From positions 124,001-188,000 of the forward strand of contig NZ_WOTB01000005.1 in the NCBI RefSeq assembly GCF_011516835.1: a stretch of 64,000 bases of DNA, in the 5' to 3' direction. Made by a program: the position numbers and the translations under genes. The first letter of the stretch is position 1; every line of letters begins with the position of its first letter. Source of the stretch: Acetobacter musti (lineage in GTDB: Bacteria > Pseudomonadota > Alphaproteobacteria > Acetobacterales > Acetobacteraceae). Below, one piece after another: positions 16,272-63,275 of the stretch. Below the pieces are notes generated by a model that saw only the letters and a program-made list of their open reading frames with translations, did not search any database and was not told where the DNA came from.

Positions 16272-16279
16272 GGCCGTTC

Positions 16280-42615: not shown

Positions 42616-44022
42616 TCAGCTATCTCTCGCCGGCCAGCGGGTTTCACCGAGATCCCAGAAAACTCCGGCTGCGATGGCGAGTCCCTCGCGCACGAGCGGG
42701 ACCAGGGCGTGCTCATTGGGGGCATGCTGGGAACAGCCTGTGTAGGAGTGCGGGATGTAGATGGTCGGCAGGCCGAGTGTGTTCGCGAAGCTGTCATTGG
42801 GCAGCGAACCACCGGAGTTCGGCATGATCATCGCTTCCTTGCCGGTCGTCTCCATGATGGATGCCGCCACAAGACGTGGCCATGGTCCTTCCGGGTCCAT
42901 TCGCGTGGCGTACCATTCCGCTCCGCTCTTAACGGAAACGACCTCGACATCATCGAAGCCTTTCTCCCGGAGATGGCGGGAAATGGCGGGCAGGAACTCA
43001 TTCACGTCCCTGTCGACCGTGTAGCGTATCTGGCAGCGCGCGAAGGCATCGGGCGGCACGGCGTTGACCGGCGCATGCGGTGTTCCGGTGCTGAAGGCCA
43101 GGACTTCGAACGTGTTCCAGCCCAGCACCTTTTCCGCAGCAGTCAGGCCGGGCTCTCCCCACCATGCGTCTATTGCGGGGCCGCTTCCGTCCTGACCGAC
43201 GATGCATTTCGCCAGGGCACGCTTTATCCCGTCGGGGATGCATTCCGGTACCAGATCCGGAACGAGAACCTGTCCGGTGGGGCCGACAAGAGAAGCGATG
43301 GCGTGCGCCAGACGGATGCCCGGATTGGCCAGCAGGCCGCCCCAGTTTCCTGAATGGTGGCCGCCCTCACGGTAACGGACCCGGAGATCGAAATTCAGCG
43401 CACCCCGCGTTCCGAGCATCAGGGTGGGCGTTTCCGGGACAAGGCGTGGACCGTCCGAGGCGATCAGCACATCCGCGGCCAGCCGGTCTTTGTGTTCCCG
43501 GCAGATCTCGTCGATGCCCGGAGAACCGACCTCTTCGCTCATCTCCATCAGCAACCGGACATTATAGCCCAGCCGGCCACCTCTTTCCGCGCGCACCGCC
43601 TCCAGCGCCATCAGATTGGCGGTGTGCTGTCCCTTATTGTCCACCACTCCGCGGCCGTACAGCCGGTCTCCCCGTCGGGTCAGCTGCCAGGGAGACAATC
43701 CTTCCTCCCATCCCGCGTCCAGACCGGGCACGACGTCGCCGTGGCCGTATGTCAGCAATGTGGGAAGCGCCGGGTCCTCGATCCGTTCGGCGATCAGGAA
43801 GGGACCGCCCTTTCCTGTGGGATTGGGCAGAATTTCGCAACTGTATCCCCGGACGCGCAGCCAGGGGGCCACGTCTTTCTCGAGATAGGCCTGCAGGGCA
43901 GGTCCTGAGGTGGGGTCCTGGCTTGCGGTCGGTATCGCGATGCGATCCGCCAGAACGGCCTCGTACACACCATCGTCCAGACAGGCTACCGCCCGGGCAA
44001 TCGCGGCTTCACGACCTGACAT
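42616..44022 (-). CDS. M20 family dipeptidase/amidohydrolase
   Basis: A 468-residue M20 hydrolase of the PepV/CNDP-like group, larger than the neighbouring 380-residue one. Zinc ligands lie in LTYGHGDVVPG, the Asp of YGRGVVDNKGQHTANL and the Glu pair of EMSEEVGSPGIDE, with HHSGNWGG in the dimerisation region and a C-terminal His in PHSYTGCSQHAPNEH. The ATG overlaps the stop of HyuA pair 2 (TAATG). A cytosolic enzyme is expected. It would cut an amide or peptide bond in the product of the adjacent HyuAB pair. Confidence 0.88.
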   Translation of the reverse strand: MSGREAAIARAVACLDDGVYEAVLADRIAIPTASQDPTSGPALQAYLEKDVAPWLRVRGYSCEILPNPTGKGGPFLIAERIEDPALPTLLTYGHGDVVPGLDAGWEEGLSPWQLTRRGDRLYGRGVVDNKGQHTANLMALEAVRAERGGRLGYNVRLLMEMSEEVGSPGIDEICREHKDRLAADVLIASDGPRLVPETPTLMLGTRGALNFDLRVRYREGGHHSGNWGGLLANPGIRLAHAIASLVGPTGQVLVPDLVPECIPDGIKRALAKCIVGQDGSGPAIDAWWGEPGLTAAEKVLGWNTFEVLAFSTGTPHAPVNAVPPDAFARCQIRYTVDRDVNEFLPAISRHLREKGFDDVEVVSVKSGAEWYATRMDPEGPWPRLVAASIMETTGKEAMIMPNSGGSLPNDSFANTLGLPTIYIPHSYTGCSQHAPNEHALVPLVREGLAIAAGVFWDLGETRWPARDS

Positions 44023-47835: not shown

Positions 47836-47870
47836 AATCTCTCCCGAATCCGTCCTGCGCGTGTCTGTCA

Positions 47871-50300
47871 TCAGAACCCGGTGGACATCGACACGAAAGC
47901 CGAGAAGCCACCTCCCACCCAGTAAGTCGGAGCGCTTCCACTGATCATCGTGCCATAAACTCCCCGCGTCGTCTTTGCTGCCCCGGTCACGCCAAACGCA
48001 CCGGAAAGGTATTTCTCGTCACCGATATTAACGAGGTTTATTTGTATCTGCGGATGTTTCAGCCACCAGACATTCCGGAACCGATATCCCATCGTAACAT
48101 TAGAAGTGATCCGGCTGGGAATCGATTCATCGTTCATGAACGTCGAATACTGGCTGTCTACGTAATTGAGCGCGAAGTTCCCAAAGGCGCTGCCGTTATC
48201 ATAGCTCAGACCAATCGACCCGCTGAATTTCGGCGACAGAACCTCGCTTTTCCCCTTTGTCGGCAGATAGTCAGAACCGCTCAGAAGATTATTATCGATG
48301 GATGTATGGAGATATTGTCCGGAAACATAAGGGCTGAAATGATGCCATGGCCTCAGTCCGAATTCCGCATTGATTCCTCGTCCTGTTTCTCCGCCGGCAT
48401 TGATGTACACGCCGGTTGCCACTCCATTAATGAGCGATTGTGACGAAATCTGTTTATTTGAGATATTATAATTAAACGCACTAACAGAGAAATTAAACAG
48501 ACCATGATGTCTGAAGCCAATTTCTTCAGCAATTGAATACTCCGGAGCCAGATTTCCAGAGTTCAGTGTAGACAGCTTTCCTGTTTTAACATTGAACACA
48601 TCCCAGTAGTTTCCACTGAGCTGAGAAAACGACGTTGTTCCATTTATATATATCTGATCTTTTTCTGTCAGCTGATAGCTGGCCGAGACCTGCGGTAAAG
48701 GCTCAAATACCTGCGATGAACTGCTATACGCAGCCCCCGGGACCGCATTTGTTGCATAGCGGGAGACCATAACGGCCTTGAAACCTGCATTCAGAGTAAG
48801 CTTATCACCGAACAGCTTAAGTGTATCGTCGACGTAAAGCCCGTTATCCTGCTGAATGAGATGCCCGTCCCAGGTACGGAGGGGCTTTCCATTGCCCATC
48901 AGAATCGGATATGCGCCGTACTGGCTCGCAACATTGCCATTGAGGCCAATCAGCGCGAAGGATGTCGCCTGCTGGAAATCCATATAGGAGTACCACCAAC
49001 CGAAGCGCATGGTATTGTTGCGTGACGTCCGCCATTTGAAATAAGAGTTTTGCCCTCCCATATATTCGCGGTAGAGCGCCTGACTTTGGACTGTTGTCTG
49101 ACCATCCACCTGGTTCGGCAGATTCAGCGGGCCTGCCGGTTCCGCACCGTTGAAGCTGTTGTCATTACTGAGGTTCGTAACGCCATTTGGCGTGCTTTTC
49201 ACATAAAAAAAGTATGGATTGATAACAAGATCCAGGCTGTTCGTAAGCCGGAGTGTCGTTGGCGCATTCATTTTTATAACGTCACGATAATAATCAGACA
49301 GCTTCTGGTAACTCGCTACACCAGGGGTAAATGTTTTGTTGTAGTTGTACGAAATGCCATACTGTTTCCACTGGGCCATGGTTGGGTACGTATCTGTAGG
49401 AGACACCATGGAGTTCCAGCCCAGCCGAAATGCAAAACTGCTGCCACGTCCCCATTCCTTCAGGAGTTTTGCGTCGACATGCTCACGCCGCCCCTGACCG
49501 GAACCACGCCATTCATTGTAGGTCACGTCGGAAAAGGAAACAAACGCCTTAACACCCGTTTTTCCGATTTCACCTGTGTCAACACGGATGAACTCACGCT
49601 CAAGCGATTTACGGCCATAACTGACATCGATCAGTCCACCAAACCTGTCTGATGGATTACGAACTTTCGTTTCAAGGGCCCCTCCGACAGCATTATGAAC
49701 CGGATACGTAATGTCCGGATTCCCTTGTGAAACTGTCACACTTTGTATGTTATCCGCATCCACCCATTCTCCCGGAAAAGCGAGATAGGAAATCGGGTCA
49801 GCGACGGGCATTCCTTCAAGCAGGGAACCGACTTCATTTTGCGGCAGACCACGCATGGAGATTCCCATGTGGTCTCCAATTCCGAGAGGGTCGGTACCAG
49901 ACACAACCACACCGGGAAGATTAGCGACCAGAGTAAGAGAATTTGATGTCGGAACCTGCTTGGCGATGAAATCACGCGTTACTGCACTGACGCTTTTTGG
50001 CGCTGTCTGCGGCGGCATGAGACCGCCTCCCGGTGTTGTGTTCGTCACACCGTTATCGAACCGCGCAGCCCCCGTCACCTGCACCTCCTCCGGAGACGCG
50101 GTTGAAACAGTCGATACCGGAGCAGCATGCAAAACAGCTACCGGTTTCTGCGAGGGAACTGCTTTTATGTGCCGCGGAGGCACCCGGTGGCCGTGGAGAC
50201 GTGTCGCAGCGTCAGATGTCCCCGCGAAAACGCTTCCCGAGGTGAGAATGGTACCGAGGAGACATATACGTCGGGCGCGGGCGGAGCCTTCACTGATCAT
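47871..50300 (-). CDS. TonB-dependent outer-membrane receptor
   Basis: A 22-strand barrel receptor of 809 residues. A signal peptide (about 1-30, ending near GTSDA) is followed by a long Ala/Val/Pro linker and a plug domain. The plug shows KSVSAVTRDFIAKQVPTSNS, MGISMRGLPQNEVGSLLEGM and VTVSQGNPDITYP. The barrel ends with an aromatic residue (STGF). The minus-strand ribosome site AGGAGA precedes the ATG. Parts of the barrel (48420-48700) are AT-richer than the rest of the operon. As first gene after the M28-like hydrolase gene it would bring a large or scarce substrate across the outer membrane. No siderophore genes are near, so iron uptake is not the obvious role. Confidence 0.9.
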   Translation of the reverse strand: MISEGSARARRICLLGTILTSGSVFAGTSDAATRLHGHRVPPRHIKAVPSQKPVAVLHAAPVSTVSTASPEEVQVTGAARFDNGVTNTTPGGGLMPPQTAPKSVSAVTRDFIAKQVPTSNSLTLVANLPGVVVSGTDPLGIGDHMGISMRGLPQNEVGSLLEGMPVADPISYLAFPGEWVDADNIQSVTVSQGNPDITYPVHNAVGGALETKVRNPSDRFGGLIDVSYGRKSLEREFIRVDTGEIGKTGVKAFVSFSDVTYNEWRGSGQGRREHVDAKLLKEWGRGSSFAFRLGWNSMVSPTDTYPTMAQWKQYGISYNYNKTFTPGVASYQKLSDYYRDVIKMNAPTTLRLTNSLDLVINPYFFYVKSTPNGVTNLSNDNSFNGAEPAGPLNLPNQVDGQTTVQSQALYREYMGGQNSYFKWRTSRNNTMRFGWWYSYMDFQQATSFALIGLNGNVASQYGAYPILMGNGKPLRTWDGHLIQQDNGLYVDDTLKLFGDKLTLNAGFKAVMVSRYATNAVPGAAYSSSSQVFEPLPQVSASYQLTEKDQIYINGTTSFSQLSGNYWDVFNVKTGKLSTLNSGNLAPEYSIAEEIGFRHHGLFNFSVSAFNYNISNKQISSQSLINGVATGVYINAGGETGRGINAEFGLRPWHHFSPYVSGQYLHTSIDNNLLSGSDYLPTKGKSEVLSPKFSGSIGLSYDNGSAFGNFALNYVDSQYSTFMNDESIPSRITSNVTMGYRFRNVWWLKHPQIQINLVNIGDEKYLSGAFGVTGAAKTTRGVYGTMISGSAPTYWVGGGFSAFVSMSTGF

Positions 50301-50401
50301 TGCCTTCTCCTGTTTCAGGTTTTTTGGTTATTTACAAGAAAACGTACATTTTTTATTTCCGACGGAGGCAATCGCCGGAGAAAAAGGATTAAAAACAGCG
50401 T

Positions 50402-52147
50402 TTACGTGGACGGTATACTCTCCAGGAGCCTGATCCCGTCATTGATCGCCGCGCAGTATCTGTTGAGGCCTCTCATAAGGTCGGTCACGGCACAGTGGCG
50501 TAAATTTCCATCGAGTTTCGAAATCTCACTCGCGACAGACAGCACAGGAAGCGGCTTCGCCGTGACGGCCGGATCGTGTTCGAAACGTGGGAGGCGAGTA
50601 AAGTTTATCGGCACAAGAATCCGCGCCAGATCCATTGAAAGCCGGTTTTTTCTGGTCGGCGGGCAGTCTGATGAAAAAACGCCTTCAATCAGTTTTCCGA
50701 ATTTCGCGGTCGCATTATGTGCCGCCGTGAAATCTCCCGCTCCGTTCGCCATCTGATCATAATTTCTGAGCGTATGTTTGATTTCGCTGACTGTGTCGGT
50801 CCAGCGGAACGGGAGCACTTCCGGCATCGCGATACGAAGCACGGAAAGAAGGTATATCTTCATATCCGTCAGCAGGACGTCCGGATCGGCAATCTCCATA
50901 GTGTCATTTTCAGTATGCCAGGCTATATTCCCGCCACATCCGGAAACGTCGTAGTAACCTTTCTCCTTACGAAGCGCATCGGGCATCGTCGAGCTGAGCA
51001 TATAGAGACTGGAAAGGCCTATATTATTGAAAGAGTAGTCTCCTGCCTGATGCGGACGCTCAATGCCGATATCTGCGTCCGGAACCACATCCCGAATGCT
51101 GGTCGTGGCGATATGGGCACATTCTGAAAATGCCGAAGTGTGATGATAACTTGTCGCCCATCGACAGCCGGGACTATCGCAGTTGATCTGCGCGACACAA
51201 TGATGATCGAGTTCCTGAGCGAAATTATCCGCGAACCACGTTGAACCGGCGTAACGACCGGTGGAATGACCTGGCCACCAGGCGATTTTTACTGATCGCC
51301 TCAACTGCAATCTGTTATTCCAGAGCACTCTCGCCAGTTCGAGAAGCGTTGCATCGCCGGTGGCATTATCTCCGACGCCGACATCCCAGCTGTCGTAATG
51401 ACCGTGCAGAAGAATAAAATCATCCGGCTCGGATGCTCCGGGAATCGTCACAACCGGAATTTTCTGAGGAAACCAGCCTTCCTGAAGTGTTGTCCGGATA
51501 ACAACGCCACACGTTTCATCAGCGCGCCGCATAAGACGCTCACCGTCGGGAGCGGATACCGCCGCCACCGGTATTCGGGGTTTGCGCGCAAGATCCGCGA
51601 GCCCGGGATTTCCCCAGATCGTTGTGCAGGTGCCCCAATGAACATCTGCTCCTGGATTGGCGACGATCAGGCCCAGTCCGCCCGCCTGTTCGATCAGAGA
51701 CGTCAGGGCGGGATTTCCAAATCCGGACAGGACAGGTATTTTTCCGCGGACGCGTTCGGAGAGATCCGCCATCGTATGGATTCCACCACCGAACAGTCCG
51801 TCAATATCCCGCGTATAGCTTCGAAGATTTGACCGGTTAGCTTCAAGATGAACGAGTTCGCCGGACACGCCGTCCGGTGCACTGAACGACGATGAGGGTG
51901 CTTTGGCCCGGATTGCAGCACCGTCAAGCGCGATGGATGCCTCGAGCGGGACTGAAAGATAAAGATCAGGTTCGCAGACCTGGACAGGAATCCCAAGAGC
52001 ACTCAGAGCGGAAGTAATGTCATCCGCCGCTGCATTAACGTCCTGCGGACGCCAGCGAGGTTTCATTGAAAACAGTTCAATAAGTTTCCATGCGGTTTCG
52101 ACCCGGACCTCATCCAGAAACCGTTTCTCCAGATCCGTGACAGTCAT
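50402..52147 (-). CDS. M28-like metallohydrolase with atypical metal site (first copy)
   Basis: A 581-residue protein with an M28 (aminopeptidase/glutamate carboxypeptidase II-like) core and a PA-type insert (about 90-215). The ligands expected at H250 and D252 (HGHYDSWD), D260 (GDNATGDA), D324 (INCDSPG) and H411 (AWHTEND) are present. The Glu-Glu motif that normally supplies the general base and a zinc ligand is replaced by GHSTGRYAGS (H294). The same replacement occurs in the gene at 53461, so it is a subfamily trait and not decay. No signal peptide is seen, so it is probably cytosolic. It would be the first gene of the long leftward run, divergent from iclR. The substrate and even hydrolase activity are uncertain. 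Confidence 0.85.
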   Translation of the reverse strand: MTVTDLEKRFLDEVRVETAWKLIELFSMKPRWRPQDVNAAADDITSALSALGIPVQVCEPDLYLSVPLEASIALDGAAIRAKAPSSSFSAPDGVSGELVHLEANRSNLRSYTRDIDGLFGGGIHTMADLSERVRGKIPVLSGFGNPALTSLIEQAGGLGLIVANPGADVHWGTCTTIWGNPGLADLARKPRIPVAAVSAPDGERLMRRADETCGVVIRTTLQEGWFPQKIPVVTIPGASEPDDFILLHGHYDSWDVGVGDNATGDATLLELARVLWNNRLQLRRSVKIAWWPGHSTGRYAGSTWFADNFAQELDHHCVAQINCDSPGCRWATSYHHTSAFSECAHIATTSIRDVVPDADIGIERPHQAGDYSFNNIGLSSLYMLSSTMPDALRKEKGYYDVSGCGGNIAWHTENDTMEIADPDVLLTDMKIYLLSVLRIAMPEVLPFRWTDTVSEIKHTLRNYDQMANGAGDFTAAHNATAKFGKLIEGVFSSDCPPTRKNRLSMDLARILVPINFTRLPRFEHDPAVTAKPLPVLSVASEISKLDGNLRHCAVTDLMRGLNRYCAAINDGIRLLESIPST

Positions 52148-52553
52148 TTCGTCTCTCCATCGATTCTTGTTTCTGTATCAGTCTGGATATTTTCGTAATT
52201 CAGCGCATTACGGCGATTTTATATTTGTGTTTAATACTTACGACAGAACATATGATGCCAACGGCGTTCTTATTTCTTTCACAATTCAATGAAATTAAAT
52301 TTCATCGTTATGAAGTATTTTCGGAACACTCACAGTGATAATAAATCCATTTTCTGGCACAGAAATTCAGCAGCGAAAGGGAGCGTCCTGTCAGACGCCC
52401 GACTGCTGCTCCGTGACAGATACTGATCCCGAACCGCAACGGAGATAATGGATATATCCCTCGGCCGGTTCAGCGGTCTTCAGATTTCTCTTTACATTTG
52501 CATCGGATCATCCGTTCATATATGTGAACATCGTTTCCGTAGGAGAATGTTGC
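52148..52553. promoter_or_regulatory. Divergent promoter region between the M28-like operon and iclR, with three palindromes
   Basis: 406 AT-rich bases hold three perfect inverted repeats: CGTAAT-N7-ATTACG (52194-52212), ATGAAAT-TAA-ATTTCAT (52289-52305) and GTTCA-N6-TGAAC (52514-52529). The first is 47 bases before the M28-like start and the last is 25 bases before the iclR start, both suited to repression or autoregulation. No gene is supported in this stretch. Which site the IclR protein binds cannot be told from sequence. Confidence 0.55.
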
Positions 52554-53381
52554 ATGACCGAACCGTATCGTCAAACAAAAACTGATCCTGCTGAGAACCA
52601 AAAGGCCGATACTTCGGTCAAATCGGCCGGGCGTATTCTCGATATCCTCGATCTTCTCGCTTTACGGACCGAACCTGTCTCGCTCGCCGAAGTCCGCAAT
52701 GTGCTTGCCTTGCCGAAAAGCAGTGCTCTGCTGCTGCTGAGAACTCTTGTCTCCCGTGGTTACGCTATGAAAAACGCGGAAGGACGCTACTACCTTGATC
52801 CCATTCTGAATGCAGGCGGGGCGGACTGGGTTGGAGGACCAAACTGCGCGATGCTGCGTCTGGTGCGCCCGGTCATGCTCACGCTCTCGCAGGCTGTCCG
52901 GGAAACGGTTCTGTACGGCGTCATGCAGCCCGATCTGACTGTAAGGCTGGTAGAAAAATGTGTGAGCCCACAGGTTATCCGATACGATACAGATATTGCG
53001 AACCCGGTTCCAGCTTATTGCACAGCAATTGGCCGATCTATACTTGCTTATTCTCCGACAGATTTTGTTGAATATTATATACAGAATACACCAATGCCTC
53101 CGTTGACGGCCAGTACGATTGTTGAACCTGATGCATTCCGGGCCAGTCTGCGGCACATCCGTGAACAGGGTTTCGCAGTCAATTTTGAGGAACGCATGGT
53201 CGGCGCTTCTTCGGTGGCAGCACCGTTCTTCGACAGCGCAGGCAAGGTACTCGGCGCAATCAATGTTGGCTGCGTCACTAGCAGTTTTGTCGAACATCGC
53301 GAGACGATTCTGGAGAATCTGCTATCGAATGTGCAGGACCTGACCAGCCGTCTCAGACAGATAAATGGCGTTGCCGCGTGA
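52554..53381 (+). CDS. IclR-family transcriptional regulator
   Basis: A 275-residue regulator. The N-terminal winged helix-turn-helix spans about residues 22-85 (SAGRILDILDLLALRTEPVS, then LPKSSALLLLRTLVSRGY). The C-terminal effector domain (GAF-like) includes YCTAIGRSILAY and FAVNFEERMVGASSVAAP, the usual IclR signatures. AGGAG lies 8 bases before the ATG at 52554. It is divergent from the 11-gene leftward run and precedes the second M28-like gene by 79 bases, so it is the likely master regulator of the HyuAB cluster. The ligand is unknown. Confidence 0.9.
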   Translation: MTEPYRQTKTDPAENQKADTSVKSAGRILDILDLLALRTEPVSLAEVRNVLALPKSSALLLLRTLVSRGYAMKNAEGRYYLDPILNAGGADWVGGPNCAMLRLVRPVMLTLSQAVRETVLYGVMQPDLTVRLVEKCVSPQVIRYDTDIANPVPAYCTAIGRSILAYSPTDFVEYYIQNTPMPPLTASTIVEPDAFRASLRHIREQGFAVNFEERMVGASSVAAPFFDSAGKVLGAINVGCVTSSFVEHRETILENLLSNVQDLTSRLRQINGVAA

Positions 53382-53460
53382 CCTCGGCGATTACCGGCAT
53401 TTTTGTAACGCCTGTTCGGCAGCCGAGATCACATTCCCGTTTCAATGCAGGAGAAAACTC

Positions 53461-55236
53461 GTGACTGATACCATAGCGTCGGATTCGACGGATGTCCCGG
53501 AAGCACCACATGCCGCCGTGGACATGGATGTGATGATGGCTCACATGACTGAATTCGCGCGGCGGACAAAGATGTCCGGATCGCCCGACGAATATGCCAG
53601 CTTTCTCTACCTGGAAAAGACGCTGACCGGTTATGGCTACGACACAACTCTGTTTCGCCATGCCGCCTATATCAGCGAACCCGGAGAGGCGCAGATCGAG
53701 ATCGACGGTGTTTTTCCGACATGCATCACGCATTCCTTTTCGCAATCAACGCCGGCGACCGGCATCTCCGGCGAAGTGATCTGGGCGGGGCGTGGAGATC
53801 CGGCCGATTTCGCCGACAGGAATGTGGCAGGCAAGATCGTTCTCATGGACGGAATAGCGAATCCCGGCGCCAGTTTGCGTGCAGGACAGGCGGGAGCAAT
53901 TGGCCAGATTCAGATCAGCCCGCATGAACATCTGCATGATATGTGCATCTCCCCGGTCTGGGGCAGTCCAACAGATATTGAGCAGGGGAACCTGCCGAAG
54001 ACCGCTGTCGTCAGCGTTCTGAACCACGTTGGCGTTTCGTTGAAACAACGCCTGGCGAAAGGCGAGACTGTAACTGCGACACTCCACACAAGAGTCATAA
54101 CAGAATGGCGAAAGATACCGCTTCTCGTTGCGGAATTAACGTCTCCGCGCGACAATGACGACAGTTTCGTTCTGCTGTCGGGTCATCATGACGCTTGGTA
54201 TTTCGGAGTGATGGATAACGGAAGTGCCAACGCCACGATGCTGGAAGCGGCGCGTGTTCTGGCAGAACGGCGTGCTGAGTGGCAACGGGGGCTCCGGCTT
54301 TGTTTCTGGTCGGGACATTCCCACGGGCGATACGCCGGTTCGGCGTGGTATGCTGATCATTACTGGGAAGAACTCGCCGGGCGTTGCGCAGCCCATGTGA
54401 ATGTGGACTCGACCGGCGGAAAGGGAGCCACCGTACTGGCGGATGCCCCGGTCTCAGCGGAGCTGGCAGCGCTCGCCATGCGGGCTGTGAAACGGGAGGC
54501 GGGTCAGGATCTCACGGGACGCCGCATGCTTCGGGCGGGGGACCAGTCATTCTGGGGTATCGGCATTCCCTCGATGTTCATGAGTTTGAGCGAGCAACCG
54601 GCTGTTCCGGGTTCAGGAAAAGATGACCGGCAGGGTGGTGGCCTTGGCTGGTGGTGGCACACGCCGGAAGATCTCATCGACAAGATTGATCCCGAATTTC
54701 TTCTGCGTGATACAAAGGTTTACGTAGATGTCCTGTGGCAGCTTCTGGCTTCGGCAATCCTGCCGCTGGACTATCAGAGCGCGACAGCCGCACTCCTGTC
54801 CGAACTCGAAGCTCTGCAGAACCACCTGGATGGCAGATTTTCGCTTACCTCTCTTGTGGCCCGGGCAAGGCAGTTGCACGCGCAGTGTGTCGGCCTGCGT
54901 TACACCCTTGCGGAAACAATGGAAGAACGCAAGATTCCGGCCATCAATACTGCCCTGATCGCGGTGTCACGCGCATTCGTTCCAGTCGATTACACCACGG
55001 GCGACCGTTTCGGCCATGATCCGGCGCTTCCGCAGCATGCCTGGCCGGTTCTGGACCCGTTGCGAAAACTGGTGGATGTGCCAGCGGAAACGGATGAAAG
55101 CCTGTTTCTCGAAGTTGCGGCCCAACGCAGCGTCAACCGGATGATGTTTGCGTTGCAGCAGGCGATCGCCGCGCTGCAGCCTGTCGCTGCACAGGACAGC
55201 GTGGGGGAGGCACTGCAAACACAGACAGGAGAATAA
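53461..55236 (+). CDS. M28-like metallohydrolase with atypical metal site (second copy)
   Basis: A 591-residue paralogue of the gene at 50402. Matching ligands are H242 and D244 (SGHHDAWY), D252 (VMDNGSAN), D316 (NVDSTGG) and H400 (WWWHTPEDL). The usual Glu-Glu motif is again replaced, here by GHSHGRYAGS with H286. The GTG start at 53461 is chosen because AGGAG precedes it by 7 bases. An in-frame ATG at 53365 would overlap the end of iclR. The C-terminal 180 residues are mostly helical and may mediate dimerisation. Two copies flanking one IclR gene suggest two related substrates or a heteromeric enzyme. Confidence 0.86.
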   Translation: MTDTIASDSTDVPEAPHAAVDMDVMMAHMTEFARRTKMSGSPDEYASFLYLEKTLTGYGYDTTLFRHAAYISEPGEAQIEIDGVFPTCITHSFSQSTPATGISGEVIWAGRGDPADFADRNVAGKIVLMDGIANPGASLRAGQAGAIGQIQISPHEHLHDMCISPVWGSPTDIEQGNLPKTAVVSVLNHVGVSLKQRLAKGETVTATLHTRVITEWRKIPLLVAELTSPRDNDDSFVLLSGHHDAWYFGVMDNGSANATMLEAARVLAERRAEWQRGLRLCFWSGHSHGRYAGSAWYADHYWEELAGRCAAHVNVDSTGGKGATVLADAPVSAELAALAMRAVKREAGQDLTGRRMLRAGDQSFWGIGIPSMFMSLSEQPAVPGSGKDDRQGGGLGWWWHTPEDLIDKIDPEFLLRDTKVYVDVLWQLLASAILPLDYQSATAALLSELEALQNHLDGRFSLTSLVARARQLHAQCVGLRYTLAETMEERKIPAINTALIAVSRAFVPVDYTTGDRFGHDPALPQHAWPVLDPLRKLVDVPAETDESLFLEVAAQRSVNRMMFALQQAIAALQPVAAQDSVGEALQTQTGE

Positions 55237-55267
55237 CGACAAAGCCTGTGTTCGGATATTGTTTCGG

Positions 55268-56461
55268 TTACAGCTCTGTCGCGCGTGAACAGGCGCGCGG
55301 ACGAATACGGATACCGCTTTTCTGCTGTTCAATGGCATGGGCGATCCATCCGATCGAACGGCTGATTGTGAACAAAGTCTCCGCTACTTCCTGTCCCAGG
55401 CCGTAGCCGGTTTCAGTGATCACCAGGGCGAGTTCGACATTGGGACGCAGCCCCGTCAGCCTGGCGACACTGTCGATCAGTTTCGCGGTCGCCGGTGGCA
55501 CCGGCACATGCGCCATGATGGCGGCGGCACGCGGATCGCCCTCCGGGTAAAGACGGTGAAAGAAACCTGGAAGGGCGCCGTTCTTCCCGGTTCTTTGCCT
55601 GACGAAATCTTCCAGGTCGTCCGTGGCCGCAGCTTCTTCCAGAAGAACCCGGACATCTTTGAAGGCGGTTACGTGTTCGAGGCCACGAAAGGCCCCGAGA
55701 CCTGCGAGCAATGCCGAGGTAAGGTCCGCATCCATCGACGCAACGACCCGGACCGCGAATGAGGCTGCGTTCAGTTCGTGATCTGCGCAGCAGACCAGGA
55801 TGCGCCGGATGACTTCGCGTGCGTCTGGGCGCTGCCACGTTTCCGCCAGAGCATCATGCAGGTTTTTCGTGACATCCAGTTTCGCGGATGCCATGGCACA
55901 GGCCAGAGCCCGCACGAGACAGACGGCGGCGGCCAGACGTTCGTTTTCCGGTCGTCGTGCAGAGGAGGCCGACGGGTCCATAAGGGCCAGCAGCGCGAGC
56001 GCGCGATCAACGGGCGGTGCATTCGCCTTGATCCGTGCCGTTCCGGCCCATCCCGGAACGAGAGCGGGGTCGAAATGTGCTTTATCGAACGGAGCGGCAT
56101 GCGCGTCCCACAGAAGCACGGCAACGTCTTCAAGCGATGCATGACCGGCGAGAGCGGTGATATCCCGCCCCCGATAAGTCAGCCGCCCTTTCTCGATCTG
56201 ACTGATATGTGTCTCGAGGATCGGCAATCCCCAGTCCAGTGCGGTGGCGACGGCGGCCGAGGGTCTGCGTGCATGATTCTTACGCCATACCAGCCTGTCG
56301 ACATCAGCCTGAACATACAGCCTGGCACGGCTGTTTCCCGGTTGCGGGACCGAACGGATCAGGCCACGGCTCACATAGGCATAGAGTGTCGACCGGCTGA
56401 CGCTGAGCGAAGCAGAGGCCGAGGCGGCATCGACAAATCCATGCGGATTTTCCTGAGACAT
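55268..56461 (-). CDS. Citrate synthase-family protein with N-terminal helix-turn-helix
   Basis: A 397-residue fusion. Residues 8-62 form a MerR/excisionase-like helix-turn-helix (VSRSTLYAYVSRGLIRSVP and a RLYVQADVDRL wing). From about 75 on there is a citrate-synthase fold. Equivalent catalytic residues are H228 in ADHELNAASF, H263 in FRGLEHVTAF (the usual HGGA glycines are replaced by VT) and H302-R303 in FFHRLYPEGDPRA. It may be a real condensing enzyme ((methyl)citrate type), a metabolite-sensing transcription factor, or both. It is transcribed alone and leftward, between rightward genes. Its upstream region has inverted repeats that could be autoregulatory. The MmgE/PrpD gene nearby also belongs to the (methyl)citrate enzyme superfamily. 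Confidence 0.85.
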   Translation of the reverse strand: MSQENPHGFVDAASASASLSVSRSTLYAYVSRGLIRSVPQPGNSRARLYVQADVDRLVWRKNHARRPSAAVATALDWGLPILETHISQIEKGRLTYRGRDITALAGHASLEDVAVLLWDAHAAPFDKAHFDPALVPGWAGTARIKANAPPVDRALALLALMDPSASSARRPENERLAAAVCLVRALACAMASAKLDVTKNLHDALAETWQRPDAREVIRRILVCCADHELNAASFAVRVVASMDADLTSALLAGLGAFRGLEHVTAFKDVRVLLEEAAATDDLEDFVRQRTGKNGALPGFFHRLYPEGDPRAAAIMAHVPVPPATAKLIDSVARLTGLRPNVELALVITETGYGLGQEVAETLFTISRSIGWIAHAIEQQKSGIRIRPRACSRATEL

Positions 56462-56481
56462 CGGCTTTCTTTCTAAATATA

Positions 56482-56515
56482 TTGAAAGATTGATTCAACA
56501 TTGACACGAAGTCAA
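56482..56515. promoter_or_regulatory. Adjacent inverted repeats upstream of the HTH-citrate synthase gene
   Basis: TTGAA-N7-TTCAA (56482-56498) is followed by TTGAC-N5-GTCAA (56501-56515), 20-55 bases upstream of the leftward start. Both lie in an AT-rich promoter-like stretch shared with the rightward M20 gene at 56657. Binding by the fusion protein's helix-turn-helix is inference. Confidence 0.45.
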
Positions 56516-56656
56516 CTTCTCCATAGCTCTTCAAAAAGTCGGCAATATATAAGGATCAGTCCGAATATTCCGACTTCAACACCGGATCAGCGCGATGCAG
56601 GATGACCCGCCCTGCCCCATCTGCGCTGTGACCCGCCTGAAGGAGGAGACGCCGGC

Positions 56657-57850
56657 ATGCGTGCATCAGAAGCAGCCAGTGAGCTGGAACGGGCCCTTCG
56701 CCTGATTCGGGAACAGGAACCGCAGATGATGGCGGAACTCCTGGATCTGGTGACCATTCCGGCTCCTCCTTTCGGAGAAGCACAACGCAGCAGCCGGATC
56801 GCGGAACGGTTTGTGTGTGCCGGACTTTCCGATGTCACCACTGATGAAATCGGAAATGTGATCGGACACTGGAAAGGAGGAGCGGGTCCACGGGTCATGG
56901 TCATCTCGCATATGGACACCGTGTTTCCGGCCGGCACCCCGCTTGTCCCGAGATTTGAACAGGACCGCGTATTCTGTCCCGGCATCCGGGACAATACCGC
57001 TGCTGTCGCCAGTCTGATCAGACTGCCCCAGGTTCTCGCTGAGGCTGACCTCTCTTTGCCCTGCGATCTCTGGCTGGCCAGCAGCGTCGGAGAAGAGGGG
57101 CTGGGAGATCTTCGTGGAATGCGGAAGCTGATGGCCGACCGGGGCGCGTCATTTGATGCTGTTGTGGTCTACGATGGCGATCTGGGCAATGTCGTTCATT
57201 GCGGCGTGGGGAGCCGACGTTTCAGAATCACCTATCGGGCGTCGGGCGGACACAGTTTCGCGGATTTCGGAAAGCCCAGCGCAGTTCACGGACTGGCAAG
57301 CGCCTGCGCGCAGTTTTGCCAGATTTCACTGCCGCCCGAGCCGAAGACCACTCTCAACATAGGCGAATTTCATGGTGGCACCTCAGTTAATGCCATTGCC
57401 CAGGAGGCAGTCGCCATTATTGACATGCGCTCGGTTTCCCAGACGGAACTTGAAAAACTTGTTATCTCCGTGCTCGATATTTTTTCGGAGACCGCGAAAG
57501 TGTTTGATTGCGGGATGGAACTGGAACAGGTCGGAGACCGGCCTGCGGGTATGCTTCCGGCCGACCATCCGCTCGTGCGGACAGGAGCAGATGTGCTGCA
57601 TGGGATGGGTATTACGCCCCGTCTCTCTGCGGCGAGTACAGACGCTAATATTGCATTATCGATGGGCATTCCCGCTATCTGCGTCGGGTCAGGCCTTGGA
57701 AAGAATGTGCACAGGCCGGACGAAAGTCTTTATGTTCCTTCGATCGTTGACGGCCTGCAACAACTCGTCCTGCTTCTGGCGCGTCTTGATTACACAGTTG
57801 TTCCGCGTCGCGATGTCATCGCAACGACGCCGGATTTCCACACGGCATGA
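56657..57850 (+). CDS. M20 family metallopeptidase (PepT/ArgE-like)
   Basis: A two-zinc hydrolase of 397 residues. Ligands lie in MVISHMDTVFPAG (His, Asp), PGIRDNTAAVASL (Asp), SSVGEEGLGD (Glu pair), VVYDGDLGN (Asp) and the C-terminal His in GLGKNVHRPDESLY. The dimerisation domain includes RASGGHSFADFGKPSAVHG. GGAGGAG lies upstream of the ATG. Its stop overlaps the MmgE/PrpD start (ATGA). This is the third M20 enzyme of the cluster and the first gene of a four-gene rightward unit. It probably removes an acyl or carbamoyl group from an amino-acid-like intermediate. Confidence 0.88.
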   Translation: MRASEAASELERALRLIREQEPQMMAELLDLVTIPAPPFGEAQRSSRIAERFVCAGLSDVTTDEIGNVIGHWKGGAGPRVMVISHMDTVFPAGTPLVPRFEQDRVFCPGIRDNTAAVASLIRLPQVLAEADLSLPCDLWLASSVGEEGLGDLRGMRKLMADRGASFDAVVVYDGDLGNVVHCGVGSRRFRITYRASGGHSFADFGKPSAVHGLASACAQFCQISLPPEPKTTLNIGEFHGGTSVNAIAQEAVAIIDMRSVSQTELEKLVISVLDIFSETAKVFDCGMELEQVGDRPAGMLPADHPLVRTGADVLHGMGITPRLSAASTDANIALSMGIPAICVGSGLGKNVHRPDESLYVPSIVDGLQQLVLLLARLDYTVVPRRDVIATTPDFHTA

Positions 57851-59205
57851 ATCATCTCTCCACGAGTGTTATCGGATCCGTTGCCCGCCGGACCGTGCAT
57901 GATACACAGTTCAGTCTGACCGCGCGTACCCGGGCATCGCACGCTTTCACGGATACGATCGGCTGCATCGTGTCCGGTGTCGCGGAAGCGCCTGTCGTTA
58001 TGGCGCGTCAGGCGCTTTCTGCTCCGGCGGGAGGTCCCTGCGCGGTGATCGGCGGTGGCGGAGCGCCGGCGGGGCACGCGGCGCTGATCAATGCGACGGC
58101 CGCCCATGCCCAGGATTACGATGATACGTTCGGGCCATTGTCGGGGCATGCCTCCGCAGTGCTTGTCCCCGCCCTGCTGGGGGTGGCTGGTCTGGTCAGC
58201 ACCAGTGGTATGCGCCTGACGGAGGCCTATCTCATTGGTCTGGAAGCGCAGGCGCTCTTTGGGCGTGGTCTCAATCCCGGTCATTACGCTGCCGGATGGC
58301 ATGCGACGTCGACAGTGGGCGCGATCGGGGCATCGATAGGGACAGCCTGGCTGCTGGGACTCGACGAGGAGGGTATGACCCGTGCCGCCAGTCTTGCCGT
58401 CAGCATGGCCTCGGGCCTCAAGGGACAGTTTGGCACACCGGCAAAGCCGCTTCATGCCGGTCTTGCAGCGCGGAATGCCGTCGAAGCGGCATTGCTCGCT
58501 GCGACCGGTCTGACGGGACGGCCGGACATCATCGAACATGCGATGGGTCTGGAAAAAGTCTGTGCCGGCAAAGGCGAGAAATGGGCGCAGATCATGATGT
58601 CGCCAGGCGCACCGCATTCCATTGAGTCCATCGGCCTGACGCCCAAGCGCTATCCCTGCTGCGCCGCAACACACGACACGCTTGACAGGCTGCTTGATCT
58701 CAGGACCCTGCATGGTTTTGACGCGGCGGACGTGGAACGGGTCGATATCGCGCTGGATGCGGTGGCCATGGACAATCTGTCCTACATGGAACCGGTGAAC
58801 GGGATGCAGGCGCGTTTCTCGATGACTTACTGTGCGGCTGTCACACTTCTTCAGGGCGTGCCGCGTCTTTCGGACTTCACGCAGGAGGCTGTGGAGGAAC
58901 CGGCGAGGCGTCGGCTCCTCTCCCTGATCCATCCGCATCTTTGTGGCGCAGAAGAATCTGCCGTCCCGCGACATCGTGTGACCGTAAGGCTCAAAGACGG
59001 ACGGACACTGCGGTCCGGACGGACGGCGGAGGCAAGTCCGCCTGCCCGCACCTTCAACGAGAACGACCGGCGGGACAAGTATCTGGACTGCTGCAGCCGG
59101 CATCTCGATCGTTCTGATGCTGACACTCTTTATGAGCGGCTTCTGACGCTTGAGAAGCAACCGGATCTGGCTTTCATCGCCTGTGCTTTCGGGAAGGCAC
59201 GATAA
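57847..59205 (+). CDS. MmgE/PrpD family protein
   Basis: A 452-residue member of the 2-methylcitrate dehydratase / aconitate decarboxylase superfamily. The N-terminal helical domain has DTIGCIVSGV and NATAAHAQDYDDTF, which contains the conserved acidic cluster. The middle part shows GRGLNPGHYAAGWHATSTVG, followed by FGTPAKPLHAGLAARNAVEA. KRYPCCAATHDTLD is the usual lid-domain signature. Members dehydrate, decarboxylate or isomerise tricarboxylates and related compounds, and many are unassigned. Its neighbours are an M20 hydrolase (overlapping) and HyuAB pair 3. The nearby citrate-synthase-like fusion suggests a link to (methyl)citrate-type chemistry, but that is inference. Confidence 0.88.
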   Translation: MNHLSTSVIGSVARRTVHDTQFSLTARTRASHAFTDTIGCIVSGVAEAPVVMARQALSAPAGGPCAVIGGGGAPAGHAALINATAAHAQDYDDTFGPLSGHASAVLVPALLGVAGLVSTSGMRLTEAYLIGLEAQALFGRGLNPGHYAAGWHATSTVGAIGASIGTAWLLGLDEEGMTRAASLAVSMASGLKGQFGTPAKPLHAGLAARNAVEAALLAATGLTGRPDIIEHAMGLEKVCAGKGEKWAQIMMSPGAPHSIESIGLTPKRYPCCAATHDTLDRLLDLRTLHGFDAADVERVDIALDAVAMDNLSYMEPVNGMQARFSMTYCAAVTLLQGVPRLSDFTQEAVEEPARRRLLSLIHPHLCGAEESAVPRHRVTVRLKDGRTLRSGRTAEASPPARTFNENDRRDKYLDCCSRHLDRSDADTLYERLLTLEKQPDLAFIACAFGKAR

Positions 59206-59302
59206 TGCTTCCGGAATGCAGCCCCTGCCGGGACATGCACAGGGTTTGTTTGCAGGGCGGTCGCGGCATATCGGCGGGATCCGAAGGAAAGGGGCATTAC
59301 CT

Positions 59303-61165
59303 GTGAGTGACAGCAATACGGAGGCGACCATATGTCGCAAATCGATCGTCGTGCCGGTGACGACCGAGATCATCAAAGGTGCGCTGCGTTCAGCCCAGGC
59401 GGAGATGGAGCGTCTTCTCCAGCGTACGGCGATGTCGCCGGTAATCCGGGAAAAGCAGGATTATTTCTGCGGTCTTTTCGATCGTGACGGACGTCTTCTG
59501 ATCGGTACGAAGCTGCCGATTCTCGGCAATATTCTTGCACCGGTCCTTGAGCGGTTTCCGATCGCGGATATGCGGGACGGCGATGTTTACTGGTACAATG
59601 ACCCCTATCTTTCTGAGGGTGGTGTTTCGCATACGCCGGACCAGGTCTTCGTCAGTCCGATCTTCGTGGATGGGGCCCTGGTGGGCTTCACTCATTCCTG
59701 GGCACATTTTCTGGACATAGGCGGAACCCGCTCCGGTTCGACAACGCCCGACGCCACGGAGATATTTCACGAAGGCATTCTCGTGCCACCGGTCAGGCTC
59801 TACAGGGAAGGCGTGCTCAACGAGGATTTGTTTCGTACCTTCGCGCGCAATTCACGCTTTCCCGATATTGTCGTTGGCGATGTCCGGGCCATGATCGCCT
59901 CCGTCGAACTGGGGCGGCGGCGCATGATCGAGATATTCAGCCGCTTCGGCATCGGTCCCGCACACCTGGCGTTCGATATACTGATTGACCAGACAAGAAA
60001 CTTCGCCCGGAAGAGGATGCGGGAGATATTCCGCTCCGGCACATACAAGTTTGCCGAACTGATCGACACGGACGGGCATGGTACCGGACCGATCGCCATC
60101 CGGATGGTGATGACCGCGGCGCAGGACAGGCTGGTTCTGGATGCCACCGGTACGGACGATCAGACCAGGGGGCCGATCAATTTTCTGATGCATCCCTCTG
60201 CTGTGCAGATGATTTTCGGAATCCATATGATCTCCGGTCATCCTGAATTCATGTTCAACGAAGGATTGCTCACCCTTGTAGACGAGGTCCGGCTCCGGAA
60301 AGGAAGCATTCTCCAGCCCTGTTTCCCGGCTTCTCTCGGCCAGCGGTCGGTCACCCTCGCACGGGTCATGAGCGCCTGCGTCGGTCTGATCAATGTGGCG
60401 AAACCGGAGCGCCCGCAGGCATCGAGTTCAGCCTACAGTGCGAATAAGCTTCGGGGAACATGGCCGGTCACGCACACACCTTTTCTTAAGACTCTGGCCG
60501 TCGCAGCCGGTCAGGGCGCACGTCATGACTCCGACGGGCCTGATGCGATCTATTTCCTCAGCCAGCAAAATTATCCTGTCGAATTTGCCGAACAGAATTA
60601 TCCACTCATCATCAGATGCTATGCCATCAATCGGGATTCCGGCGGCCCGGGACGCTGGCGGGGCGGATGCGGGGTCATCCGGGAATTCGAGATGCGCTCG
60701 GAAACAGCCTCTGTATCATTGAGGATGAGTAACGTGGAGTGGCCGGCCTACGGCGTGGAAGGCGGCCTTTGCGGGCGTTCAGGTCGTTTCACACTTAATC
60801 CCGGCAGACCAGACGAGCGGATTCTGCCATCCCTGCAGGACGGAGTTATTCTGCGTACTGGCGATGTTCTGAGGATTGCCATGCCCGGAGGGGGTGGAGT
60901 CGGACATCCGTTTGACCGGGAACCGGAACAGGTTCTGCGGGACGTGACAGCCGGGTTCGTAAGCATGGAAAGCGCACTGGAGGAATATGGCGTGGTGATC
61001 GAGCCGGAAACGGAAACGATCGATCTCGTCGCCACTCTCGACCATCGTTCGGTGAAACGCTGGCCGACAAAGCTTTTCCACCGGAGGCACTATTTCGACC
61101 CCAGAAGCTGGTGGGATGAGGCCGATGCCGCGACCCGCAACGAGGCTCTGCCTTCCGTTACATGA
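59303..61165 (+). CDS. Hydantoinase/oxoprolinase family, subunit B (pair 3)
   Basis: A HyuB subunit of 620 residues. Its N-terminal SAQAEMERLLQRTAMSPVIR matches pair 2 almost word for word, as do WYNDPYLSEGGVSHTPDQVF, SWAHFLDIGGTRSGS and the C-terminal MPGGGGVGHPFDREPEQV. I chose the GTG at 59303, since AAGGGG lies 8 bases upstream and alignment with pair 2 begins there. An in-frame ATG at 59216 is possible. It follows the PrpD gene by 97 bases. Close similarity to pair 2 points to duplication within the cluster. Confidence 0.88.
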   Translation: MSDSNTEATICRKSIVVPVTTEIIKGALRSAQAEMERLLQRTAMSPVIREKQDYFCGLFDRDGRLLIGTKLPILGNILAPVLERFPIADMRDGDVYWYNDPYLSEGGVSHTPDQVFVSPIFVDGALVGFTHSWAHFLDIGGTRSGSTTPDATEIFHEGILVPPVRLYREGVLNEDLFRTFARNSRFPDIVVGDVRAMIASVELGRRRMIEIFSRFGIGPAHLAFDILIDQTRNFARKRMREIFRSGTYKFAELIDTDGHGTGPIAIRMVMTAAQDRLVLDATGTDDQTRGPINFLMHPSAVQMIFGIHMISGHPEFMFNEGLLTLVDEVRLRKGSILQPCFPASLGQRSVTLARVMSACVGLINVAKPERPQASSSAYSANKLRGTWPVTHTPFLKTLAVAAGQGARHDSDGPDAIYFLSQQNYPVEFAEQNYPLIIRCYAINRDSGGPGRWRGGCGVIREFEMRSETASVSLRMSNVEWPAYGVEGGLCGRSGRFTLNPGRPDERILPSLQDGVILRTGDVLRIAMPGGGGVGHPFDREPEQVLRDVTAGFVSMESALEEYGVVIEPETETIDLVATLDHRSVKRWPTKLFHRRHYFDPRSWWDEADAATRNEALPSVT

Positions 61166-61223
61166 CCGCCACCCCGTCACTCCTGACATGAAGCTTCCAC
61201 CCTGTCAGACAGAAGGAGCCACC

Positions 61224-63275
61224 GTGAACCGTACAATTTCGATAGCTGTCGATACTGGCGGAACGTTTACAGACATAACGCTTGTCGATCGTGAGACCGG
61301 AATCCTCTGCAAGGCCAAGGTTCCCTCGACACCGGACGACCCTTCAGTCGGATTTATCACCGGGGTCAGAACCATACTTGCGCAGGCAGGCCTGACTCCT
61401 GACAGCATCAGCCATTTTTTCCACGGGACAACGGTCGCAACCAATACAATCCTGGAGATGAACGGTGCTGCCTGTGCTCTGCTGACTACTGCCGGATTCC
61501 GTCATGTCCTTGAAATCGGTCGCCACGACATTCCCCGAGACGGGAATATCCATTCCTGGGTGAAGCCGGAACGACCAGTGCCAGCAAACCGAATTTACGA
61601 AATCGAAGGCCGCCTCGATTTCGAGGGGAAGCAGATCGCCCCCCTGTCGGAGGATACGGTGCGCCGTGCCGTCGCCGATATCCGCCGCAGGGGCATTCCG
61701 GTCATCGCGGTATCCTATCTTCATGCCTATGTCAGTGCCGTTCATGAGCAGCGCACGCGGGAAATCATCGCCGAGGAATATCCCCGGGCTCTGGTCTCTC
61801 TGTCCTCGGATGTCCTGCCGGTTTTCCGGGAATTCGAGCGCAGTATGGCGACGCTGCTGAATGGCTATGTCATGCCGAAAGTATCGCGTTACGTCACCAG
61901 CCTCGAAGAGAGGATCGCCGGAGAGGGAGCGGACGGACGCCTTCTGATCATGAAATCGAACGGCGGTGTGACGGGAGCCGGTTCGATCCGTCGCCTGCCG
62001 ATCCATACGGCATTGTCGGGACCGGCTGCCGGTGCGGTCGGAGCCAGTCTTATCGGCCGGCTGACCGGCGAGAACAGGCTCATCTCGTTCGACGTGGGTG
62101 GTACATCGGCGGATATCTGTCTCATCGACGGAAACATACCGACCGTGACAACGGAAGGCAGTGTCGGAAACTGGCCGCTGGCGTTGCCGATGGTTGATAT
62201 CCATACGATCGGAGCGGGTGGCGGTTCGATAGCCCGGGTTGAGAATGGCTCCCTCCTGGTCGGTCCCGGCAGTGCGGGAGCGTTACCGGGACCTGCCTGT
62301 TACGGGCACGGCGGAACGGACCCGACCGTGACCGATGCACACGTCGTACTGGGTCATCTTCCACCACGCCTGCTGAACGGCACGATGACACTGGACGTCG
62401 ATGCCGCGGCCCGGGCGATAGAACGTGCGGTGGCGCGTCCTCTCGGCATCGGTCTCCACGAAGCCGCGCGCGGGATCCTTGATATCGCCAACAATGCGAT
62501 GATCGGTGCCATCCGTGTGGTTTCGGTCGAGCGTGGATATGATCCCGCCGAATTCGTTCTGGCACCATTCGGTGGTGCGGGACCGCTGCATGGCGGCTTT
62601 CTCACCCGCCTTCTGGGCATGAAGGCGGCAATGGTGCCACCGGAGGCAGGCGTGCTGTCAAGTCTTGGACTGCTCTGGTCGGACCTGAAAAGCGATTTTT
62701 CGCAGACATGTATTCTGAAAACGAACAGTTTAGATCTTTCCTTATTAGATAAAGCATTTCAGTCACTCGATACCCAGGCCAGAAACTGGCTCGAAACGGA
62801 GGGTGTGCCAGACAGCGACCGGGATATTCTGTGGTTCGTCAGCATGCGCTATGCTCACCAGGGCTTTGAACTCCTTGTCCCGTGGCCGGTAAAAGAGGTG
62901 TCTGACGCGACACTGACTGCTGCGATCGGGAATTTTCACTCAGCGCATCACCAGCTTTATACGTTCTCTCAGCCGGAAATGCCGGTGGAGCTTGTGCTGG
63001 CACGCGCAACGGCAGTCGGCCGGTTTGCCAAACCTGCGCTCCGCACGCTGAAAATCACGGGAGCCGCAAGCGATGCCATAACGGGCTCGCAGCAGGTCTA
63101 CAGCAATGGCGACTGGCTTTCCTGCCCCGTCTATGATCGCGATCGGCTCGGCGCCGGAGCGACGTTCAGCGGACCTGCGATCATTGAGCAACTGGACGCC
63201 ACGACCTACGTGCTTCCTGGTCAGCGCGCTTCAGTGGACTGCTATGGCATTCTCTGTGTCAGCGAGGAAAGTTAG
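61224..63275 (+). CDS. Hydantoinase/oxoprolinase family, subunit A (pair 3)
   Basis: A HyuA subunit of 683 residues from a GTG with AGAAGGAG 5 bases upstream. Landmarks: SIAVDTGGTFTDITLVD, HGTTVATNTILE, FRHVLEIGRHDIPR, IMKSNGGVTGAG, ALSGPAAGAVGAS, SFDVGGTSADICLID and ANNAMIGAIRVVSVERGYDP. These match pair 2 in order and wording. One difference is the first phosphate loop, DTGG here versus DIGG in pair 2. It is the last gene of the four-gene rightward unit. A 79-base gap without a clear terminator separates it from the convergent glycosyltransferase gene. Confidence 0.9.
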   Translation: MNRTISIAVDTGGTFTDITLVDRETGILCKAKVPSTPDDPSVGFITGVRTILAQAGLTPDSISHFFHGTTVATNTILEMNGAACALLTTAGFRHVLEIGRHDIPRDGNIHSWVKPERPVPANRIYEIEGRLDFEGKQIAPLSEDTVRRAVADIRRRGIPVIAVSYLHAYVSAVHEQRTREIIAEEYPRALVSLSSDVLPVFREFERSMATLLNGYVMPKVSRYVTSLEERIAGEGADGRLLIMKSNGGVTGAGSIRRLPIHTALSGPAAGAVGASLIGRLTGENRLISFDVGGTSADICLIDGNIPTVTTEGSVGNWPLALPMVDIHTIGAGGGSIARVENGSLLVGPGSAGALPGPACYGHGGTDPTVTDAHVVLGHLPPRLLNGTMTLDVDAAARAIERAVARPLGIGLHEAARGILDIANNAMIGAIRVVSVERGYDPAEFVLAPFGGAGPLHGGFLTRLLGMKAAMVPPEAGVLSSLGLLWSDLKSDFSQTCILKTNSLDLSLLDKAFQSLDTQARNWLETEGVPDSDRDILWFVSMRYAHQGFELLVPWPVKEVSDATLTAAIGNFHSAHHQLYTFSQPEMPVELVLARATAVGRFAKPALRTLKITGAASDAITGSQQVYSNGDWLSCPVYDRDRLGAGATFSGPAIIEQLDATTYVLPGQRASVDCYGILCVSEES

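Follow-up and report, generated by a model that had tools for sequence, protein, structure and literature searches.

The window, by which we mean the whole 64 000-nucleotide stretch analyzed here, contains on its minus strand an open reading frame (ORF; positions 55268–56461, 397 amino acids) in which a winged helix-turn-helix (HTH) is fused to a citrate synthase (CS) fold. Judging from its sequence and those of its relatives, this protein (the window HTH-CS), which belongs to a widespread HTH-CS family, is probably a one-component transcription regulator with an operator at its own promoter, and in this copy the synthase domain would act as a sensor only, most likely without being an enzyme. 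The original prediction, which extended from 55268 to 56515, had proposed such a fusion; the rest of that range (56462–56515) is DNA upstream of the ORF.

The fusion was confirmed by profile searches, structure prediction and fold alignments. The CS fold occupies residues 77–389 (55295–56233, minus strand; Pfam Citrate_synt, PF00285, E = 1.4e-54), and the winged HTH residues 8–64 (codons at 56270–56440, minus strand). HTH_17 matched residues 16–60 (E = 7.7e-4) with 20.1 bits, below its curated cut-off of 27, and the MerR-type profiles were also under their curated cut-offs (MerR_1, 17 versus 21.6 bits; MerR, 14.3 versus 28.2 bits); in an NCBIfam search, no model reached its cut-off. An AlphaFold model made from 35 aligned sequences (mean pLDDT 87.7) shows a winged HTH at residues 9–64, built from helices 12–19 and 23–31, a wing of strands 37–40 and 43–50, and a helix 51–64; residues 67–80 are badly predicted, and the CS fold follows them. 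The order of HTH and wing is that of the MerR/excisionase type (HTH_17, MerR_1), from which the window HTH-CS differs by its scores below the curated cut-offs and by having a citrate synthase fold as effector domain. With this model, the top Foldseek matches were 2-methylcitrate synthases, and nearly all of the 50 rows listed by VIA-align (Z 28.7–32.0) were named citrate or 2-methylcitrate synthases; because these rows mainly span residues 52–397, they hardly cover the HTH. PrpC 3o8j, 3tqg and B. subtilis CitA 2c6x aligned with Z values of 29.6–31.3 (rmsd 2.9–3.8, 313–322 residues, 23–24% identity), and the window protein has in addition the winged HTH, which lies outside those alignments. A PDB sequence search with the HTH part returned a single match at chance level (E = 0.7). 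The GC contents at the three codon positions (0.69/0.51/0.64) are of the coding type and resemble those of the neighbouring genes, and the ORF is intact.

We compared the protein with 136 distinct HTH-CS homologues from family, order and phylum genomes, public genome contigs (the best 80 of 208 relatives) and plasmids (four HTH-CS stretches fetched out of 110 records with a match). Exact duplicates were dropped (L003 and L004, which are the window itself, L053, L055 and L024), and one locus (L010) was added manually without an upstream score, leaving 135 scored upstream regions. Outside this set stand 17 HTH-CS places from the phylum search, 11 of which were fetched and used solely for scans of neighbours and operator sites, and one from the larger family sample, which held nothing closer to the window copy. 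The set leans to similar members, since the window protein served as the query and conserved CS motifs contained two of the six peptides used to search the public contigs; identities to the window HTH-CS are mostly 34–44%. No full-length match above 44% identity was found in 49 genus genomes, 200 and 397 family genomes (overlapping samples), 395 order genomes and 398 phylum genomes, and within the genus Acetobacter the other 48 genomes gave no match at E = 1e-20. The longest match in the plasmid DNA search was 39 bases. In a FastTree phylogeny of 137 HTH-CS and 30 CS rows (30 of the 87 CS rows available), a branch with a support of 100 separated all synthases from the HTH-CS rows. The window protein formed a long terminal branch (1.09) beside L025 from Microvirga (support 94), a position to be read with the program's own caveat that the placement of long branches is unsure.

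Loss of the recognition helix among homologues would have spoken against DNA binding, and no such loss was observed. The helix TLYAYVSRG (residues 25–33) is near-invariant: R32 and S31 are present in 136/136 homologues, Y27 in 135, T25 and L26 in 133 and Y29 in 131. In the ten HTH columns tested, the window copy shows no change, and the same is true of 104 of the 136 homologues. Local regulators usually vary their recognition helix, and a helix that is nearly fixed throughout the family therefore predicts one common DNA site. We also considered co-variation of residue 24 with the operator's dyad edge (proteins with Q24 mostly have T..A, and the edge is more varied in those with A24), and make no claim from it since related sequences dominate the comparison.

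Such a common site does lie just upstream of most HTH-CS genes and reads TCAAT-n-TTGAT-N7-ATCAATAT. A position weight matrix (PWM) was trained without the window on 126 sites from 135 upstream regions, each of 250 bp with a further 30 bp of coding sequence. It has a near-invariant core, TCAAT-n-TTGA, with ATCAATAT 7 nt after the T; nine of the ten core columns (8–17) are at 96–99% and the sixth is variable, while the columns on either side are not very informative. A search for the dyad TTGAT-N7-ATCAA was positive in 86 of 136 upstream regions, with that of the window HTH-CS among the negatives, and in none after mononucleotide shuffling. At a threshold of 12 bits, which was picked by eye, 125 of the 135 regions contained an operator, with six named phyla represented, and 10 had none. 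The site was found whatever the divergently transcribed partner: citrate synthase, 78/83; CoA-transferase, 23/24; HMGL-like, 8/8; DUF2332, 7/7; other genes, 6/10; and cases too short to classify, 3/3. By phylum, it was present in Pseudomonadota (54/59), Chloroflexota (9/9), Acidobacteriota (3/5), Myxococcota (2/2), Latescibacterota (1/1), Gemmatimonadota (1/1) and sequences from plasmids or with no phylum name (55/58). Under an older labelling of the loci by divergent synthase (77 paired, 53 unpaired and 6 unseen), a PWM from CS-paired genes scored no site in the entire fetched locus higher than the one at the HTH-CS promoter in 46 of 53 unpaired loci; with a PWM from unpaired genes, this held for 73 of 77 paired loci.

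The operator is also specific to these loci in whole genomes. A strict match was found once in each of 13 out of 20 genomes and in none of the other seven, and a backwards control pattern had no match in the same 20. Twelve of the 13 sites lie directly upstream of an HTH-CS gene. The thirteenth belongs to a member outside the 136 (L185), has a second, inverted site beside it and is located 2.9 kb upstream of HTH-CS, with no site directly at the HTH-CS start. The two opposed copies (at 3095 and 3288, ∼190 bp apart) are flanked on one side by a divergent gene whose similarity to its L180 counterpart marks it as a 2-hydroxyacid dehydrogenase gene, and on the other by an SDR-MFS gene pair, which lies ahead of HTH-CS on its strand and ∼500 bp from it. 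These sites are at the promoters of other genes, and the operator can therefore serve other promoters of the locus. Taken at the sequence level, HTH-CS genes carry a matching, locus-specific predicted operator at their own promoter, regardless of the divergent gene.

The window follows this pattern. Its predicted operator, GTCAATGTTGAATCAATCTTTCAATATAT (56477–56505, minus strand), lies 16–44 bp upstream of the start codon and scored 22.9 bits with the family PWM, compared with 6.9 for the next best site in the 64 kb and 7.8 for the top-scoring one among 2000 shuffled versions of the upstream region, and is thus well above what chance would give. Within the family this is a weak site, between the 10th (19.3) and 25th (33.5) percentiles (median 43). 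The near-invariant core TCAATnTTGA is at 56495–56504 (minus strand). With the pattern TCAATNTTGAN9TCAA, the window operator was the sole exact match in the 4.7-Mb genome; one mismatch was found at two places and two mismatches at 48, that is, 51 places with up to two mismatches compared with 10 for a control pattern, so that with looser matches this common only the exact one is telling. One of the single-mismatch cores (G000:C9:61539-61561) is ∼170 bp upstream of gltA, which encodes the main citrate synthase, and sits at the 3΄ end of the preceding ORF, and is probably due to chance. Both palindromes of the original prediction exist, each as one copy in the window, and they differ in meaning. 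TTGAA-N7-TTCAA (56482–56498, minus strand) is the right-hand dyad of the family operator, its edges changed symmetrically from TTGAT..ATCAA to TTGAA..TTCAA, and the TTGAATCAA variant recurs in L025, the sister of the window protein in the phylogeny. TTGAC-N5-GTCAA (56501–56515, minus strand) is no family feature: its GTCAA half is the left end of the operator and its TTGAC half is not conserved, an extra TTGA half-site 5–6 nt before the operator being seen at 6 of 126 sites, the window's included. With a near-invariant helix and an operator conserved together with the gene, binding of the window HTH-CS at its own promoter, as originally suggested, is very likely.

We next consider the pocket of the synthase domain in ten active-site columns (H228, S233, H263, G264, G301, H302, R311, D343, R368 and R387). 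By analogy with the numbering of pig citrate synthase, we take H228, R311, R368 and R387 to bind oxaloacetate, H263, H302 and D343 to be catalytic, and G264 and G301 to adjoin the two catalytic histidines. The window copy keeps H228, R311, R368 and R387, the carboxylate-binding residues that it shares with PF00285 citrate and 2-methylcitrate synthases, and H263 and H302. The histidines and R303 that the original prediction had listed (H228, H263 within HVTA, H302 and R303) are all present, although R303 is no family residue (R in 6/77 CS-paired and 12/53 unpaired homologues). The window protein differs from the synthases by S233A, G264V, G301F and D343E, of which D343E, S233A and G301F had escaped the original prediction; the catalytic His-His-Asp triad and its adjoining glycines are therefore incomplete. 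Among the homologues, 119 of 136 had no change in the ten columns and 17 had one, whereas none had more than one; G264 and S233 are present in all 136, which makes V264 and A233 unique to the window copy. Conservation of the catalytic Asp and His, which the original prediction had suggested comparing, holds for the family (H263, H302 and D343 are kept in 129/136) and fails for the Asp of the window copy. D343E alone does not prove a loss of activity because Glu is usual at this column in the other citrate synthases compared (54/64), most of which are divergent partners of HTH-CS genes. As a separate observation, these divergent synthases (e.g. L025:4836-5972) mostly have Glu at the column in which a catalytic Asp is usual for citrate synthases, while the HTH-CS proteins keep Asp. 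Loss of the divergent synthase was rejected as a general cause of pocket decay: active-site residues are about equally kept in CS-paired and unpaired homologues, and the window pocket is therefore an individual case.

From these residues, the pocket has probably kept its carboxylate site and lost its acyl-CoA and condensation chemistry. Larger side chains next to each of the catalytic histidines, together with Glu in place of Asp, suggest that the window copy has most likely lost acyl-CoA/oxoacid condensation. Of the ligands originally envisaged, acyl-CoA is a less likely effector than an oxo-, di- or tricarboxylate since the substituted residues V264, T265 and F301 flank the catalytic histidines and H228, R311, R368 and R387 are retained.

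A different reading is that of a trigger enzyme, that is, a catalytically active synthase of the citrate or 2-methylcitrate type, coupling catalysis to regulation by repressing the gene that encodes it. The retention of the catalytic triad in nearly all homologues, of the carboxylate-binding residues in the window copy and the frequent Glu at the Asp column of other synthases are in its favour, and because 129/136 members keep H263, H302 and D343, the HTH-CS family as a whole may be enzymatic. However, the window copy stands alone with V264 and A233, to which F301 and E343 are added, and its genome encodes two citrate synthases that score better (472 and 406 versus 185 bits). An ordinary enzyme regulating its own gene, the second option of the original prediction, is less likely for a copy that is alone in having four of ten active-site positions changed, and we consider the trigger enzyme an unlikely explanation here. 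Alternatively, horizontal transfer might have left behind a copy that has no function and is decaying, which would account for its presence in 1 of 49 genus genomes, the long terminal branch, the active-site changes and the weaker operator. Such decay is nevertheless highly improbable, given an intact ORF with coding-type base composition, the retention of 48 of the 53 columns conserved at ≥95% in the family and of all ten HTH columns, and an operator that has been kept in a variant shared with L025.

It might further be supposed that the HTH is a structural or protein–protein interaction domain and that the motif is a promoter or RNA element rather than the operator of the protein. The motif does hug the start codon, its end falling at the median 4 nt past the point that aligns with residue 1 of the window HTH-CS, and PWM columns 22–27 look like a –10 box. 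Against this, the core TCAA-N2-TTGA cannot make an RNA hairpin with its 2-nt loop, and the outer dyad edge shows no co-variation (T-A 88, T-T 20, C-A 12, T-G 3 and A-A 2; n = 125), and an RNA element was rejected on these grounds. Moreover, the L185 motif is found 2.9 kb from the HTH-CS start, in two opposed copies at the promoters of other genes, and none of the 20 genomes searched has a strict match outside an HTH-CS locus. We regard a promoter or RNA element as very unlikely, and a DNA-binding regulator whose synthase domain is a sensor remains the preferred reading.

The gene diverging from the window HTH-CS is the first of four on the plus strand: an M20 family metallo-hydrolase (56657–57850), a MmgE/PrpD family protein (57847–59205), a hydantoinase B/oxoprolinase family protein (HyuB; 59150–61165, start uncertain) and a hydantoinase A/oxoprolinase family protein (HyuA; 61116–63275, start uncertain). 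We classified the divergent genes of the 136 loci by profile HMMs, with Pfam on representatives. These classes replace the older pairing labels, which missed some divergent synthases; a pairing split from a gene caller (41/71 of 112) was poorer and served only for choosing neighbours. The partners were citrate synthase (83), CoA-transferase III (24), HMGL-like (8), DUF2332 (8) and other genes (10), and three cases were too short to read. The four named classes, which together cover 123 of 136 loci, are usual rather than defining, and the M20-PrpD-HyuB-HyuA unit of the window belongs to none of them. In a neighbour BLAST (threshold E = 1e-10) of 202 loci, including the window's own, with flanks of 1.5 to 10 kb, no M20 match was found beside the other fetched HTH-CS loci, and a PrpD-like ORF in L064 was the only neighbour matching any of the four genes. 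The start of the divergent synthase is no more than 500 bp away in 80 of the 83 cases, whereas L123, L132 and L133 have it at ∼1.0–1.1 kb, behind another gene. In L133 (L164), this is a PEP-mutase/isocitrate-lyase-like gene, an order that resembles prpB-prpC of the 2-methylcitrate cycle, and this arrangement may connect the family with 2-methylcitrate metabolism and with the PrpD of the window. The pairing label (older labels) switches 17 to 21 times on the tree; the regulator therefore keeps its operator while the partner gene is exchanged. Independently of the window, DUF2332, a family of unknown function, was repeatedly found divergent from HTH-CS (8/136; L044, L092, L107, L175 and others), which is a hint to the pathway of DUF2332.

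On the basis of the conserved helix and operator, we infer that the window HTH-CS binds DNA in a ligand-dependent manner. As a CS-type oligomer, the protein would place more than one HTH on the TCAA/TTGA half-sites arrayed at 56477–56505, and once bound it would repress or gate both the HTH-CS promoter and the divergent M20-PrpD-HyuB-HyuA unit, the direction of control being conjectural. A small carboxylate from the pathway of that unit might bind the old oxaloacetate site and shift the open/closed state of the CS domain, which would alter DNA binding. Autoregulation is the safer half of this scheme because the operator is near the HTH-CS start in most members. Control of the M20-PrpD-HyuB-HyuA unit, which the original prediction had raised, is plausible and is the weaker half because its first start codon is ∼150 bp away from the operator; the only promoter-like match points towards M20 (9/12, with 0.2 expected by chance).

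Regulators with enzyme-derived sensor domains are a known kind. A literature search, with most subscription papers and preprints out of its scope, found no description of an HTH-citrate synthase regulator or of its operator, and citrate synthase as the sensor of a regulator with a conserved operator appears to be undescribed. On balance, we lean slightly towards the broader view that HTH-CS proteins constitute an undescribed, multi-phylum class of transcription factors with a CS sensor, a near-fixed helix and operator and swapped targets (CS, CoA-transferase, HMGL-like, DUF2332 and transporters), of which the window member would have gone furthest by abandoning catalysis and re-tooling its pocket for an effector of the M20-PrpD-hydantoinase unit. 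The fold of a central metabolic enzyme would be an unusual sensor for a local gene switch. If this view is correct, many genes annotated as 'citrate synthase family protein', as HTH-CS genes often are in public databases, would encode transcription factors, and the number of citrate synthase isoenzymes per genome would be overestimated. The defined operator makes the regulator idea directly testable, and the classes of divergent genes hint at carboxylate and CoA metabolites to try.

A named relative is ATU_RS25370 (WP_236762366.1) on pAtC58 of Agrobacterium fabrum C58, which is 40% identical to the window HTH-CS over residues 25–390 and is annotated as 'citrate synthase family protein', with no function beyond the name. 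Like the window gene, it is divergent from another gene and has an operator upstream (TCAATCTTGATTTATATAATCAATA); unlike it, the divergent partner is a citrate synthase, and G301, which is R there, is the sole change among the ten active-site columns. In Streptomyces coelicolor, a passage of one report describes the adjacent genes SCO5831 and SCO5832 (citA3/citA4) both as putative citrate synthases and states that MtrA binds between them (PMC12323332). So described, the pair resembles HTH-CS loci in its adjacent citrate synthase genes with a common intergenic regulatory region.

Two other parts of the window deserve mention. The region 44022–63275 contains two sets of hydantoinase A/B genes (44022–47871 and 59150–63275) and also groups two M28 peptidases, M20, PrpD, a TonB receptor and an IclR regulator. 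Its M28 proteins share 52–62% identity with their counterparts in a plasmid cluster of Roseomonas marmotae (L109), in which HyuB, M20, IclR and ABC transporter genes are found and no HTH-CS is annotated within the fetched stretch. Positions 13596–19764, which encode a CoA-transferase, an acyl-CoA dehydrogenase and ETF, had their best hits among the matches listed in Sinorhizobium, Ensifer and Paracoccus plasmids (73–77% identity), and this similarity suggests that the segment has been exchanged with plasmids.
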